Shown: in pieces, positions 53,935-58,088 of the stretch | Numbering within the stretch: the first letter of the stretch is position 1 | Layout of the letters: every line of letters begins with the position of its first letter | NCBI GenBank assembly: GCA_958295955.1 | Contig: OY282420.1 | Span: forward strand, 2,928,435 to 2,992,434 | Length of the DNA stretch: 64,000 nucleotides | Origin: an uncultured Bryobacterales bacterium | GTDB taxonomy: Bacteria > Acidobacteriota > Terriglobia > Bryobacterales > UBA6623 | Direction of reading: 5' to 3' | The notes under the pieces: model-generated | Database searches by the model: none | Seen by the model: the letters and a program-made list of their open reading frames with translations, nothing else | What the model was told of the DNA's origin: nothing | Program-made: the position numbers and the translations under genes

Positions 53935-55626
53935 TCAAGCGAAGTATATCAGCATGGCCAGCGTTAGCGCGCCGAGCGCCCAGGCCCAGGGGCGCTCGCT
54001 GCGCCAAAACGGCCGCTCCGCTGCGGACGCTTCCGCGCGGCGGAGGCCCGCCCGCGTGTAGGCATTGACGCCGTCCGCGCGGCGCGGACCGAAACGGCTC
54101 AGCACGATCAACAAAACCAGCGCAAACACTGCGGTCAACGCCGTGCGGTGCAAAAAATTCAATTCGGCGCCCAGCGCCGAGGCCGCCGACTGCGCAAGCG
54201 GAGAGCCGCCGGCGACCCATGCGCCGTAGCCCCACTGGATTGTAAACGAGAACAGCGGCGACAGCAGCATCGCCCAGAATGCCCCCGCCGCGCCGGCGCC
54301 GCGCCACAGCACGCCGGCCAGAAACGCCGCGGCAATGCCGGGCACGACGTGGCCGATCTGCGAGGGCACTTTCAGGAAGAAATTGTCCGCGGCGTCTTCC
54401 GTGTAAATCCCGGCGGCGATGCCGGCGGCGACGACGACAAACGCAAGGATGGTCAGGCGTCCGACCAGGACCAGCCTGCTTTCGCTTGCCGCGGGGTTCC
54501 AATAGCGCTTGTAGAAATCGAACGTGAACAACGTCGCGCCGGAGTTCATCATCGAATCGATGCTCGACAGAATCGCGCCGATCAGCCCCGCGGTAATGAT
54601 TCCCGCCAAGCCGTATCCGGCCGGTACGACCAGTTTCACCAATAGAGGAAAAGCGTCGTCGGGCAGCGGCAGGGCGCCGATTTCCCCGGTCTTCAGGCGG
54701 GCTTGAAAAAGGTGTCCGGCGGCGATGCCCGCGGCGACCGACACGAAGGGCACGAGCAGCTTCAGATAGCCCGCCGCGACGATGCCCATCTTGGCGTCGA
54801 AATCGCTGCGCGCGGCCAGCGCGCGCTGGGCGATGAATTGATTCGTCGCCCAGTAGAAGATGTGGATGATCAGCAGCCCCGAGAACACGCCGGTCCAGGG
54901 CAGTTGCGGGTGGTCGGTGGGCAGATACAGATGGAATTTCTGTTCGGCCGCCGGCAGCGCGGCGTCAGCGGCGAGCAGGCCGCCGAGACCGCCGACCTCG
55001 GGCTGCGCGAAGACGAGAACGGCGACCACGATGCCTGCCGTCAAGAGCATGAAAGATTGGATGACGTCGGTCCAGATGACGGCCTTCAAGCCGCCCAGGA
55101 TCGTATAGACGCAGGTGACGACCGCGAATACGAGAATCCCCGCGGCGTAGCTTATTTCGAAGTCCGTGCCGCGCAGCAGGTAGCTCAAGGCGCGCGCGCC
55201 GATGTAGAAACCCAAGGCCATGCGCACGATCACGATGGTGACGATGGTGAACGCCGAATAGAGAAAGCCGCTGCGCGCGTCGTAGCGCTTCGTCAGGTAT
55301 TCCGACAGGGTATAGAGCCCCATCTTGCGGTAGAGCGGCAGGAACACGAAGGCCAGAATCAGCAGCCCGGCGATCGCGCCGTATTCGAAGTGCGATTGCG
55401 CGAAGCCGATCGAATAGCCGATGCCGAGCATGCCGACGAGATGCTCCGCGCTGACGTTGGTGCCGAAAATCGAGCCGGCCACGCCCCACCAGGGGACGCT
55501 CTTGCCGGCCAGGAAAAAATCCTCCGCGCCCTCTTCCTTGCGGCCCGTCCACAGCCCGACCGCCATGACCACGATCAAGCTCGCCAGAAAAATCGCAAAA
55601 TCGAAGGAGCCGAGCGCAACGGGCAC
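53935..55626 (-). CDS. Sodium/solute symporter (SSS/SGLT family)
   Basis: 563 residues, about 13-14 hydrophobic helices. The GTG at 55626 is used. The core GMLGIGYSIGFAQSHFEYGA, YTLSEYLTKRYDARSGFLYS and GAILSSIDSMMNSGATLFTF (sodium-site region of helix 8) place it near the SGLT branch, which carries sugars, though other solutes are possible. The C-terminus has extra helices. It is the first gene of a same-strand group with the osmoprotectant importer, which suggests co-regulated solute uptake. Confidence 0.9.
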   Translation of the reverse strand: MPVALGSFDFAIFLASLIVVMAVGLWTGRKEEGAEDFFLAGKSVPWWGVAGSIFGTNVSAEHLVGMLGIGYSIGFAQSHFEYGAIAGLLILAFVFLPLYRKMGLYTLSEYLTKRYDARSGFLYSAFTIVTIVIVRMALGFYIGARALSYLLRGTDFEISYAAGILVFAVVTCVYTILGGLKAVIWTDVIQSFMLLTAGIVVAVLVFAQPEVGGLGGLLAADAALPAAEQKFHLYLPTDHPQLPWTGVFSGLLIIHIFYWATNQFIAQRALAARSDFDAKMGIVAAGYLKLLVPFVSVAAGIAAGHLFQARLKTGEIGALPLPDDAFPLLVKLVVPAGYGLAGIITAGLIGAILSSIDSMMNSGATLFTFDFYKRYWNPAASESRLVLVGRLTILAFVVVAAGIAAGIYTEDAADNFFLKVPSQIGHVVPGIAAAFLAGVLWRGAGAAGAFWAMLLSPLFSFTIQWGYGAWVAGGSPLAQSAASALGAELNFLHRTALTAVFALVLLIVLSRFGPRRADGVNAYTRAGLRRAEASAAERPFWRSERPWAWALGALTLAMLIYFA

Positions 55627-55717
55627 GGCTCACAGGGTAGCGCACTGCCGGGGTCTTGCCGGGCGGCGTCCGGTTAGAATGCGGGGAGTGCGCCGCGGCG
55701 CTCCTTGAAGTACAACG

Positions 55718-56281
55718 ATGAATCCGGTATCCGATGAAGTGATTCGCGTACTCACGTTTCTTCTGCCGGGATTTGTGGCGGCCGCGGTTTTCTATTCGCT
55801 CACTTCACACCCCAAACCCGGCACGTTCGACCGCGTCATTCACGCCCTGATATTCACGGTCATCGTGCAAGCGGCAACAGCGGGATTCCCCTTGAGTAAA
55901 GACCGGGAACTTCTCTTGGCCGTGCCGGCTGCGGTCGTGCTGGGGTTGATAGCCGTTATCCTTTCGAATAAGGACTGGATACACCGCTTCCTCCGCTGGC
56001 TTCGCATCACCAAGGAAACATCCTACCCATCCGAGTGGTATTCCTCTTTTTCTCGCGATAGCTGCTATGTGGTCTTGCATCTGAAAGGGCAACGCCGTCT
56101 TTACGGCTGGCCCCAAGAGTGGCCCAGTCGTCCGGATCAAGGCCATTTCCGAATCAAAGATGCCGAATGGCTGGTTGAGCACGACAGAACGTCCGCAACG
56201 GGGGTTTCTGATATTCTGATACCCGTTAGCGAAGTCGAAATGGTGGAGTTTCTGAAACCCCACGAAAAATCCAAGGAGTAA
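55718..56281 (+). CDS. DUF6338-like membrane protein, first gene of a three-gene cassette
   Basis: 187 residues. Two or three membrane helices lie between residues 5 and 85 (VLTFLLPGFVAAAVFYSL, and LLLAVPAAVVLGLIAVILS). A cytoplasmic beta-rich domain of about 100 residues follows (CYVVLHLKGQRRLYGWPQEW, FRIKDAEWL, VSEVEMVEFL). The layout resembles DUF6338 proteins, whose role is unknown; the match is from memory. Base use is visibly AT-richer than in the flanking transporters. Its final codons and stop (aaggagtaa) create the ribosome site for the microprotein gene starting three bases later. TAGAAT at 55675-55680 may be the -10. Confidence 0.65.
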   Translation: MNPVSDEVIRVLTFLLPGFVAAAVFYSLTSHPKPGTFDRVIHALIFTVIVQAATAGFPLSKDRELLLAVPAAVVLGLIAVILSNKDWIHRFLRWLRITKETSYPSEWYSSFSRDSCYVVLHLKGQRRLYGWPQEWPSRPDQGHFRIKDAEWLVEHDRTSATGVSDILIPVSEVEMVEFLKPHEKSKE

Positions 56282-56284
56282 GAC

Positions 56285-56368
56285 ATGGCCAAGCAACCGA
56301 CACTGCCGCCCCCAAACGCCCGCAAACCCCCGCCGCCGCCTGCCCCGCCTCCGAAAGTAAAGGAGTAA
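56285..56368 (+). CDS. 27-residue proline-rich microprotein
   Basis: The ATG at 56285 lies three bases after the DUF6338-like stop and seven bases after its AGGAG. The peptide starts MAKQPTLPPPNARK and ends KPPPPPAPPPKVKE. That tail is repeated almost exactly in the next gene (KPPPPPAPPPKLKD), with different codons, so the peptide ending seems to be under selection. It also ends in aaggagtaa, which forms the next ribosome site. No known family is recognised. Polyproline peptides can bind SH3-, EVH1- or profilin-like surfaces, but nothing here shows a partner beyond the upstream membrane protein. Confidence 0.6.
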   Translation: MAKQPTLPPPNARKPPPPPAPPPKVKE

Positions 56369-56371
56369 ATC

Positions 56372-56515
56372 GTGGCCGAAGAACCAAAATCAGCGCCATC
56401 GAAACGACAGGTTAATGGGCAGCGGGTGAGTGTGCAAGATGGCATGTCGCCAAAACCGACCAACGTGGCCAAACCGCCGCCCCCGCCCGCCCCGCCGCCG
56501 AAATTAAAGGATTAA
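56372..56515 (+). CDS. 47-residue proline-rich microprotein, tail paralogue
   Basis: The GTG at 56372 follows the previous stop after three bases, with AAGGAG seven bases ahead. The N-terminal 32 residues (MAEEPKSAPSKRQVNGQRVS and on to PTNVA) are hydrophilic and unlike the first microprotein. The C-terminal KPPPPPAPPPKLKD matches its tail at 12 of 14 positions. No signal peptide or membrane segment is seen. It overlaps by three bases a convergent gene fragment. The function is unknown; the conserved tail and coupling suggest that both peptides serve the same partner. Confidence 0.6.
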   Translation: MAEEPKSAPSKRQVNGQRVSVQDGMSPKPTNVAKPPPPPAPPPKLKD

Positions 56516-56652
56516 CAGCCGGTCTCGAAATAGCAGCCATCCCGGCCGCAAAGCAAGACCGCCGCGATGCGCCGGGCGGTGTCGGTGAAGCGCCGGACTT
56601 CCTCGGGGCGCAGGTACCGGCCGAGGATGGGGCGCTCGCGGCCCCGCGCCGC
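56512..56652 (-). pseudogene. C-terminal fragment, possibly of an adenine-specific DNA methyltransferase
   Basis: 46 codons ending at the TAA of 56514-56512. The peptide includes RPILGRYLRPEEVRRFTDTA and RRIAAVLL, which resembles the C-terminal helices of large N6-adenine/Eco57I-like methylases (LGRYL-x-PEE...RRIAA-LL pattern, from memory). An in-frame stop at 56655-56653 cuts it off and no start codon exists. The SLC13 gene begins immediately beyond. It is most likely a leftover from an excised or deleted restriction-type gene. Confidence 0.35.
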
Positions 56653-56657
56653 TCAAG

Positions 56658-58088
56658 TTACCAGATGCCGATGAGCTTCCACCAGGCCGGGCCGGCCGTA
56701 CACCAGACGAGCAGGTTCCAGAGCGAGACCAGGAAGCCCACGCGCCACCAGTCGGCAAAGCTGACGTAGCCCTGCGAAAAGAAGATCGGCGAGGGCACGG
56801 TACCGTAGTGCGTCAACCCGGCCGAGAGGTTCGCCAGGCAGGCGAACAGAAATACGGCCAGCCCCAGCGGGGCGTCGTGCGCCAGCAGCAAGAGCAAAAA
56901 CGGCGGCAGCATGGTCAGCATGTGCATGGTGATGCTGGCCAACCCGTAGTGCGCGTAGAAATAGACCAGCAGCGTAGCGGCCAGCAGCGGCAGCCAGTGA
57001 AGCTCGCCCAGCGCCCCGCTGACGGCCGCGGCGAAGGCGGATGGAACTCCCGCTTCGGTAAGCGCGTTGCCCAGAGTGATGACGCCGCCGTACCAGATGA
57101 ATATGTCCCAGGTGGATGCCTGCCCGACGACGTCGTCCCAGCTCAGCACGCCGCTGACGAGCAGCGCCGCCGCGCCTGCAAGCGAAGCCGCCGCGACCGG
57201 AATCGAGTGCAGGGTCGAGGTCATCCACAGGCTGCAAACGCAGATGAAAACGCCGACGGTGATCCACTGCCTGGAGCCCATGGCCCCCAGCTTGACGATC
57301 TCTTCCCGGGCGAATTCCGTGGCGCGGGGGGTGTGCCGAATCTCCGGGGGCAGCAGGCGCGAGACGATCCAGACGAGGCCGGCGATGCTCAGCAGTCCGG
57401 GCACGATTCCGGCCAGCGCCCAAAGCCCCCACGACAACTCGTAGCCGGTGAGCGATTTCACGATGTCGGCGGCGATGAAGTTGCTCGCCTGCCCGGTGAG
57501 AAACATCGCGCTGGCGACAACTTCGCCCTGATAGACCGCGGCCATGAGGAAGGTTCCCAGCAAGCCCGCGGTCTTCGCTGGCAGAGAGCCGTAAAGCTCG
57601 GCAAGGCTGCGCGTGATGGGCATGATGACGCCGCCCGCGCGGGACGTGTTCGAGGGGATCATGGTCGCCAGGGTCACGTCGCTGAAGATCAGCGCATAGG
57701 CGATGCCGTTCGACCGCGAGCCGAAATGCTGCACGAACCAGAGGGCGATGCGCTTGGCCAGTCCGGTTTCGATCAGGGCGCGGGCGATCAACAGGGCGCC
57801 GGCGACGAGCCAGACGGCGGGAGCGCCGTACCCCGAAACCGCCTGCTCGATTTCCAGCGCGCCCGACAACGTCGCGGCGACCAGACTCAGCAGAATGACC
57901 GCGCCGCCGGGCAAGGGCCGCAGCGCCAGCCCGGCGATCGCCGCGGCAAAAATCGCCAGCAGCAGCCGGCCCTCGGGCGCGACGCTTGACGAGCGCGGGA
58001 GCAGCCAATAGACGGCAAACCCGAAGAGGACAGCGGCGCCCAGGCGCTTGAGATCGGGACGCGCTGCCGCGCCCGCCGATTTCGACAT
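56658..58088 (-). CDS. SLC13/DASS-family anion symporter
   Basis: 476 residues, 11-12 helices. AVSGYGAPAVWLVAGALLIA and AYALIFSDVTLATMIPSNTS (the serine-asparagine-threonine sodium/carboxylate motif), repeated as AHYGLASITMHM in the second half, identify the DASS fold. Members take up dicarboxylates, citrate or sulfate with sodium. It is similar to the 2-oxoglutarate/malate translocator group. TACAAT lies nine bases before the ATG. It is divergent from the PQQ gene at 58149. Confidence 0.9.
   Translation of the reverse strand: MSKSAGAAARPDLKRLGAAVLFGFAVYWLLPRSSSVAPEGRLLLAIFAAAIAGLALRPLPGGAVILLSLVAATLSGALEIEQAVSGYGAPAVWLVAGALLIARALIETGLAKRIALWFVQHFGSRSNGIAYALIFSDVTLATMIPSNTSRAGGVIMPITRSLAELYGSLPAKTAGLLGTFLMAAVYQGEVVASAMFLTGQASNFIAADIVKSLTGYELSWGLWALAGIVPGLLSIAGLVWIVSRLLPPEIRHTPRATEFAREEIVKLGAMGSRQWITVGVFICVCSLWMTSTLHSIPVAAASLAGAAALLVSGVLSWDDVVGQASTWDIFIWYGGVITLGNALTEAGVPSAFAAAVSGALGELHWLPLLAATLLVYFYAHYGLASITMHMLTMLPPFLLLLLAHDAPLGLAVFLFACLANLSAGLTHYGTVPSPIFFSQGYVSFADWWRVGFLVSLWNLLVWCTAGPAWWKLIGIW

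Follow-up and report, generated by a model that had tools for sequence, protein, structure and literature searches.

DUF6338 membrane proteins and the proline-rich microproteins encoded beside them probably constitute a widespread, mobile two-component module in which the tails of the dedicated microproteins bind a predicted Sm-type domain, most likely in the service of phage defence. One such cassette is present in the window, the 64,000-nucleotide stretch of DNA from an uncultured Bryobacterales bacterium that was analyzed here, and it contains the following features:

55718..56281, plus strand: DUF6338 gene, 187 amino acids (open reading frame and Pfam PF19865)
56273..56278, plus strand: AAGGAG Shine-Dalgarno sequence for microprotein 1, within the final Lys-Glu codons of DUF6338 (from the sequence; relatives are alike)
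56285..56368, plus strand: microprotein 1, 27 amino acids, MAKQPTLPPPNARKPPPPPAPPPKVKE (open reading frame; member of the companion family)
56360..56365, plus strand: AAGGAG Shine-Dalgarno sequence for microprotein 2, within the final Lys-Glu codons of microprotein 1 (from the sequence; direct repeat D2)
56372..56515, plus strand: microprotein 2, 47 amino acids, GTG start, tail KPPPPPAPPPKLKD (open reading frame; aligns with the companions of L022 and L023)

The three genes share a single frame and are separated by gaps of exactly 3 nt. Genes 1 and 2 both terminate in aag-gag-taa, which places AAGGAG at Shine-Dalgarno distance from the next start, and this arrangement is present just as the initial annotation of the region described it. 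That annotation also held that the two microproteins have matching tails beyond chance expectation, and the tails (KPPPPPAPPPKVKE and KPPPPPAPPPKLKD) are identical at 12 of 14 residues, a value reached in 0 of 200,000 composition shuffles, the best of which gave 9. They are encoded with different codons, as had been noticed, with four synonymous and two non-synonymous differences, and the layout recurs in dozens of independent genomes. The block is indeed AT-richer than its neighbors, with a GC content of 56% for the cassette compared to 65% for the window, and a GC3 of 62% for the DUF6338 gene compared to 84-88% in neighboring genes. A promoter and terminator scan gave no signal exceeding that of shuffles, and no NCBIfam model was matched by any of the three cassette proteins.

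Small companion genes are found beside DUF6338 throughout the family. A genome scan identified 39 loci encoding DUF6338 relatives, from Acidobacteriota, Pseudomonadota, Chloroflexota, Binatota, Bacteroidota, Planctomycetota, Armatimonadota, Spirochaetota, Nitrospinota, Cyanobacteriota and others. More distant members came from family searches, and further annotated DUF6338 records from protein searches covering plasmids, phages and E. coli. Under a strict rule, which was formulated after examples had been viewed, a companion was located 3′ of 52 of the 65 non-redundant DUF6338 genes and of 12 of 398 other genes. Two of these 12 control genes correspond to true companions upstream of DUF6338, one is a DUF6338 copy that had not been excluded, and nine pass by accident. 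The 13 genes missed by the rule were inspected by eye and companions were seen in most, giving a companion beside approximately 64 of 65 genes by reading (>10 phyla), with two cyanobacterial cases being less sure. The initial annotation had named a lack of proline-rich short ORFs beside other DUF6338 genes as the observation that would count against it, and such ORFs accompany the family as a whole. In a set of viral contigs collected after the main set (31 loci, 28 non-redundant), companions were present in 28 of 28 loci by reading and in 17 of 28 by the strict rule. A viral scan using the Acinetobacter DUF6338 as query gave no matches. At one viral locus (L147) the companion gene has an internal stop while DUF6338 is intact, making it a natural microprotein-broken variant. 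A script also suggested natural fusions of DUF6338 with its companion at viral loci L148 and L170, which were rejected: in one of them the stop is immediately followed by an ATG, and the other differs by an apparent frameshift from the near-identical sister locus L169.

Companions are of more than one kind. The poly-P kind (MAKEPNPPPS...KPPPPPPPPPKK) is encoded immediately after DUF6338 by a single short ORF or by several, and the second kind, found in distant members from Enterobacteriaceae, Acinetobacter and others, contains GYQP repeats and usually ends in PPPKKR or PPPKKP. At least four different proline-rich microprotein genes lie in tandem behind a single DUF6338 gene in Serratia quinivorans (L050, 3′ of 3645). 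In E. coli (L104 and L105, 8270-8530) the companion is an 86-amino acid protein with several GYQP-type repeats, the number of which differs among relatives. In three Acidobacteria the small gene is located upstream of DUF6338 with gaps of 6, 7 and 20 nt; thus the order relative to DUF6338 changes and the adjacency stays. In another acidobacterial relative (L006), the DUF6338 protein is on a long branch and is extended at its C-terminus by a low-complexity segment; a proline-rich frame overlaps the gene and is a questionable companion.

Comparison of synonymous and non-synonymous changes, which the initial annotation had called for in the tails, indicated purifying selection on the small genes. 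For most close pairs their pN/pS was 0.10-0.20, rising to as much as 0.41 between distant ones, close to the DUF6338 value in the same pairs, and they are therefore protein-coding. For microprotein 2 compared to the companions of L022 and L023, pN/pS was 0.41 and 0.36, respectively, at near-saturated distance. The position of the companions is also conserved, as 38 of the 43 located starts fall within -40 to +20 nt of the DUF6338 stop, with a median of +3, and a Shine-Dalgarno-like 4-mer precedes 37 of the 43, mostly inside the last DUF6338 codons. The small companions are therefore positioned for translational coupling to DUF6338. Expression of such genes has been detected in Pseudomonas stutzeri, where mass spectrometry identified three novel proline-rich proteins of <50 amino acids encoded in a DUF6338 operon, with 44-114 spectra each, while DUF6338 itself was undetected (PMC10433244). 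The authors of that study saw no relatives beyond the species and proposed that these are de novo genes (PMC10433244). A de novo origin of the companions is contradicted by their spread over phyla in the DUF6338 tree, and the conservation of the pairing across phyla makes it unlikely for the P. stutzeri proteins as well, if they belong to this family. Small companion genes of this type are often missed by annotation or judged to be species-specific.

Companion type follows DUF6338 phylogeny. When 62 DUF6338 proteins were placed in a tree, each of the three companion types (poly-P, GYQP and upstream) occupied one side of one branch, and companion type changes only twice in all, which is the minimum, compared to a shuffle mean of 18. 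The root of the tree is unsure because the deep branches are long; the two main clades matched each other with a probability of 97% in hhalign. Within the poly-P clade, different phyla are intermingled, suggesting horizontal transfer.

In the window the cassette was inserted, as a segment of ~1 kb, between two transporter genes that are conserved, and the following features surround it:

55650..56655, no strand assigned: ~1-kb insertion containing the cassette (empty site in six relatives; end points approximate)
53935..55626, minus strand: sodium:solute symporter (SSF), flank outside the cassette (Pfam PF00474, E 3e-60)
56554..56640, minus strand: C-terminal remnant of a type ISP restriction-modification enzyme (blastp against the enzyme of the same genome, E 3e-9; DNA match E 1.7e-7)
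56658..58088, minus strand: sodium:sulfate/dicarboxylate symporter, flank outside the cassette (Pfam PF00939, E 2e-112)

The two symporter genes are ~36-42 nt apart in six relatives of the same family and 1,031 nt apart here. This empty site, together with the presence of related cassettes on prophages, plasmids and Tn7-like elements, supports the proposal that the cassette is mobile, and the adjoining gene remnant that had been suspected is the type ISP C-terminus, which is convergent with the cassette. The intact type ISP homolog in the same genome matches Pfam Type_ISP_C (E 4e-40) and lies ~0.7 kb from a DUF6338 fragment (L139, G000:C1:1311146-1311211 and 1311869-1314472), and its C-terminus matches the remnant in the window. 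Between this fragment and the type ISP gene is a 205-amino acid ORF with a possible membrane helix (L139:2761-3378) and without a Pfam match. A whole DUF6338 cassette is also found tail-to-tail with a type ISP enzyme at L027. Taken together, the window remnant, L139 and L027 indicate that the DUF6338/type ISP pair recurs. The large convergent neighbor at L028 was considered as a restriction enzyme and, unlike the L027 neighbor, was rejected by PADLOC.

Carriers of DUF6338 elsewhere include E. coli prophages, plasmids and a phage-plasmid, and a relative occurs in a Klebsiella phage record. The E. coli cassettes are cargo of P2-like prophages, and anti-phage genes are known to concentrate in P2-like phages and P4-like satellites (PMC9122126). 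One kind of cassette is located in a prophage-like element with TIR and SIR2 genes. On the Proteus penneri plasmid pPp47 (L097, 7001-9221), Tn7-like cargo directly after TnsE comprises DUF6338, a 59-amino acid companion with an acidic end, a ThsB-like TIR protein and a caspase. Acinetobacter plasmids (L106 and L108) encode a WYL protein, a metallohydrolase with weak LmuA and RTasMBL matches, one or more E2-E1-JAB genes, DUF6338 and two microproteins, a gene set that is possibly a larger ubiquitin-like system. Other neighbors of DUF6338 include BrxC, located before it, with PglX in the neighbor set (BREX, L045); IetA and IetS directly before it in Paludisphaera (L101); an MmeI-type enzyme (L048); a caspase (L043); and RelA/SpoT with an OLD/AriA-like ATPase (L042). 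In many relatives that come from sponge and marine symbionts, by contrast, the neighbors are housekeeping genes. A role in defense had been suggested from the window, and this is supported in part, by the defense-type neighbors at several loci; for the window's own clade no clear enrichment of defense genes was seen with a rough PADLOC control that also held defense genes (24 families/110 proteins versus 87/135, where distinct proteins are not counted by the tool). PADLOC is without a model for DUF6338; the window protein matched only the generic Mem_01 (E 2e-5), over its membrane helices, and the E. coli relative gave no match in PADLOC.

The window protein had been described as DUF6338-like, and it matches PF19865 at residues 11-183 (E 2e-10, 40.9 bits compared to the curated cut-off of 26.5). 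The membrane helices and cytoplasmic beta domain attributed to it are matched by a confident AlphaFold model (mean pLDDT 86.6), which predicts membrane helices at residues 3-28, 36-55 and 61-84, a short helix at 87-94, and a cytoplasmic six-strand barrel of the Sm/LSm fold at approximately 106-179. When the model was compared to the PDB, 48 matches were obtained at E <= 0.001 (best E 9e-5), and all of the 50 matches listed are Sm/LSm proteins or spliceosome/snRNP entries, with TM scores of 0.53-0.78 (normalized to the target). DUF6338 is thus predicted to consist of three membrane helices and a cytoplasmic Sm/LSm-fold barrel. At the sequence level, the window protein did not match the LSM family of Pfam, even with E values of up to 1 allowed, and a PDB profile search retrieved no Sm protein. 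Alignment of 17 representatives identified Pro17-Gly18, Trp107, Phe111, Gly130 and Trp151 as conserved across the family. The usual RNA-binding residues of Sm proteins are DxMN between strands 2 and 3 and RG in the last turn; in the same alignment, DUF6338 has WPSxPxxGHF or SFASSxPEPEQI at the Sm1 position, and ILIP or IIIL at the Sm2 position. An in-frame read-through of the three genes folded with 17 relatives gave a pLDDT of 74-75 for the poly-Pro tail of microprotein 2 and 41-45 for the linker, a weak hint from modeling that this tail may be docked on DUF6338.

We propose that the module would comprise a membrane-anchored Sm-fold DUF6338 protein and one to several proline-rich microproteins produced by translational coupling. 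Anchored in the inner membrane, DUF6338 would expose its Sm-type barrel to the cytoplasm and, like most Sm proteins, would probably be oligomeric. The microproteins, which are disordered, may bind the Sm-type domain by the Pro-rich Lys/Arg tail conserved at their C-terminus and, once bound, could act as a gate, inhibitor or adaptor of DUF6338, with their variable front parts potentially setting specificity. Such a module would most likely serve phage defense or exclusion, either as an accessory or as a membrane effector. In a more specific version, which we regard as rather unlikely, DUF6338 would be a minimal Sm-domain membrane pore with a layout like that of the MscS core, shut or opened by the polyproline microproteins and depolarizing phage-infected cells. 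If true, it would represent a membrane immune effector gated by microproteins and spread by mobile elements across bacterial phyla.

A toxin-antitoxin form of the same model is possible, though we would not expect it to be the correct one. Here, DUF6338 alone would harm the membrane and an excess of tandem microproteins would restrain it until phage infection removes them. The tandem array of four or more microprotein genes that follows a single DUF6338 gene at L050 is consistent with this, as are the abundance of the microproteins in P. stutzeri where DUF6338 was undetected (PMC10433244) and the belief that known anti-phage membrane proteins are suicide effectors (PMC9122126). However, toxicity of DUF6338 is hypothetical and membrane proteins are often under-detected by mass spectrometry. 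Less likely still, DUF6338 could be a membrane-bound, Sm-like RNA-binding ring, with the cationic microproteins as co-factors that bring phage or host RNA to the membrane. Sm-fold proteins commonly bind RNA, and the strong PDB matches of the Sm/LSm fold and the Lys/Arg-rich tails would fit such a tether, but the usual RNA-binding residues are replaced in the aligned DUF6338 clades and there is no Pfam LSM match.

It is quite improbable that the microproteins are proline-rich antimicrobial peptides or bacteriocins, with DUF6338 as their immunity or export protein. They are small, rich in Pro and Lys, and encoded beside a membrane protein on plasmids and phages, and antimicrobial roles were named as an option for those of P. 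stutzeri (PMC10433244). Against this, no leader or signal peptide, ABC exporter or peptidase was present beside the annotated loci (elsewhere, short flanks were examined), the P. stutzeri microproteins were detected in cell samples, it is their C-terminal tail that is conserved, and companion type follows the DUF6338 clade. Finally, accidental low-complexity frames in GC-rich DNA, which yields proline-rich frames since proline codons are CCN, would account for control genes such as the nine of 398 that pass the strict rule, but as an explanation of the companions they are ruled out by purifying selection, conserved start spacing, mass spectrometry in P. stutzeri, and recurrence in unrelated genomes including E. 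coli and Acinetobacter.

With the module reading, a domain of unknown function from many phyla becomes a two-component system with a testable partner, and proline-rich microproteins that were judged species-specific or left unannotated are seen to be conserved with a membrane protein across phyla. Since E. coli prophages, plasmids and a phage-plasmid carry the cassette, its function is directly testable in laboratory strains. More generally, the bases beside DUF genes in mobile elements are worth scanning for coupled microproteins.

We know of no activity test of DUF6338 cassettes, and to our knowledge no described system has the anatomy of a membrane-anchored Sm-fold domain with its own proline-rich microproteins. 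The literature searched contained no description of the family-wide pairing, the two companion types, the membrane-Sm architecture or the mobile context. Sm/LSm proteins (archaeal SmAP, Hfq-type fold) share the fold predicted for the cytoplasmic domain of DUF6338, which differs from them in being joined to three membrane helices, in lacking the typical RNA-binding residues and in having no sequence-level Pfam match. MscS-type channels such as YnaI share the general order of membrane helices followed by an Sm-like beta domain (the beta domain of MscS is Sm-like by SCOP assignment), and the PDB profile search returned a weak match of DUF6338 to YnaI (E 0.04). However, DUF6338 is without the C-terminal alpha-beta domain of MscS, and membership in the MscS family found no support in hhalign against 20 MscS proteins (probability <1%). 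The window protein belongs to Pfam family PF19865, to which no function is assigned and whose description does not include small companions. What was already known is DUF6338 as a domain of unknown function and the operon of one strain, P. stutzeri ATCC 14405, in which Pstu14405_RS12030 is accompanied by three proline-rich SEPs (PMC10433244). DUF6338 and the operon idea are common to that case and to the window cassette, which also encodes proline-rich proteins of <50 amino acids in an operon with DUF6338; the P. stutzeri SEPs were reported as species-only, whereas the window-type pairing spans phyla, a comparison made from descriptions and not from sequences. Lastly, the module has a parallel in the anti-phage genes that P2-like phages and P4-like satellites carry as cargo (PMC9122126), as the DUF6338 cassettes of E. 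coli are likewise carried by P2-like prophages.
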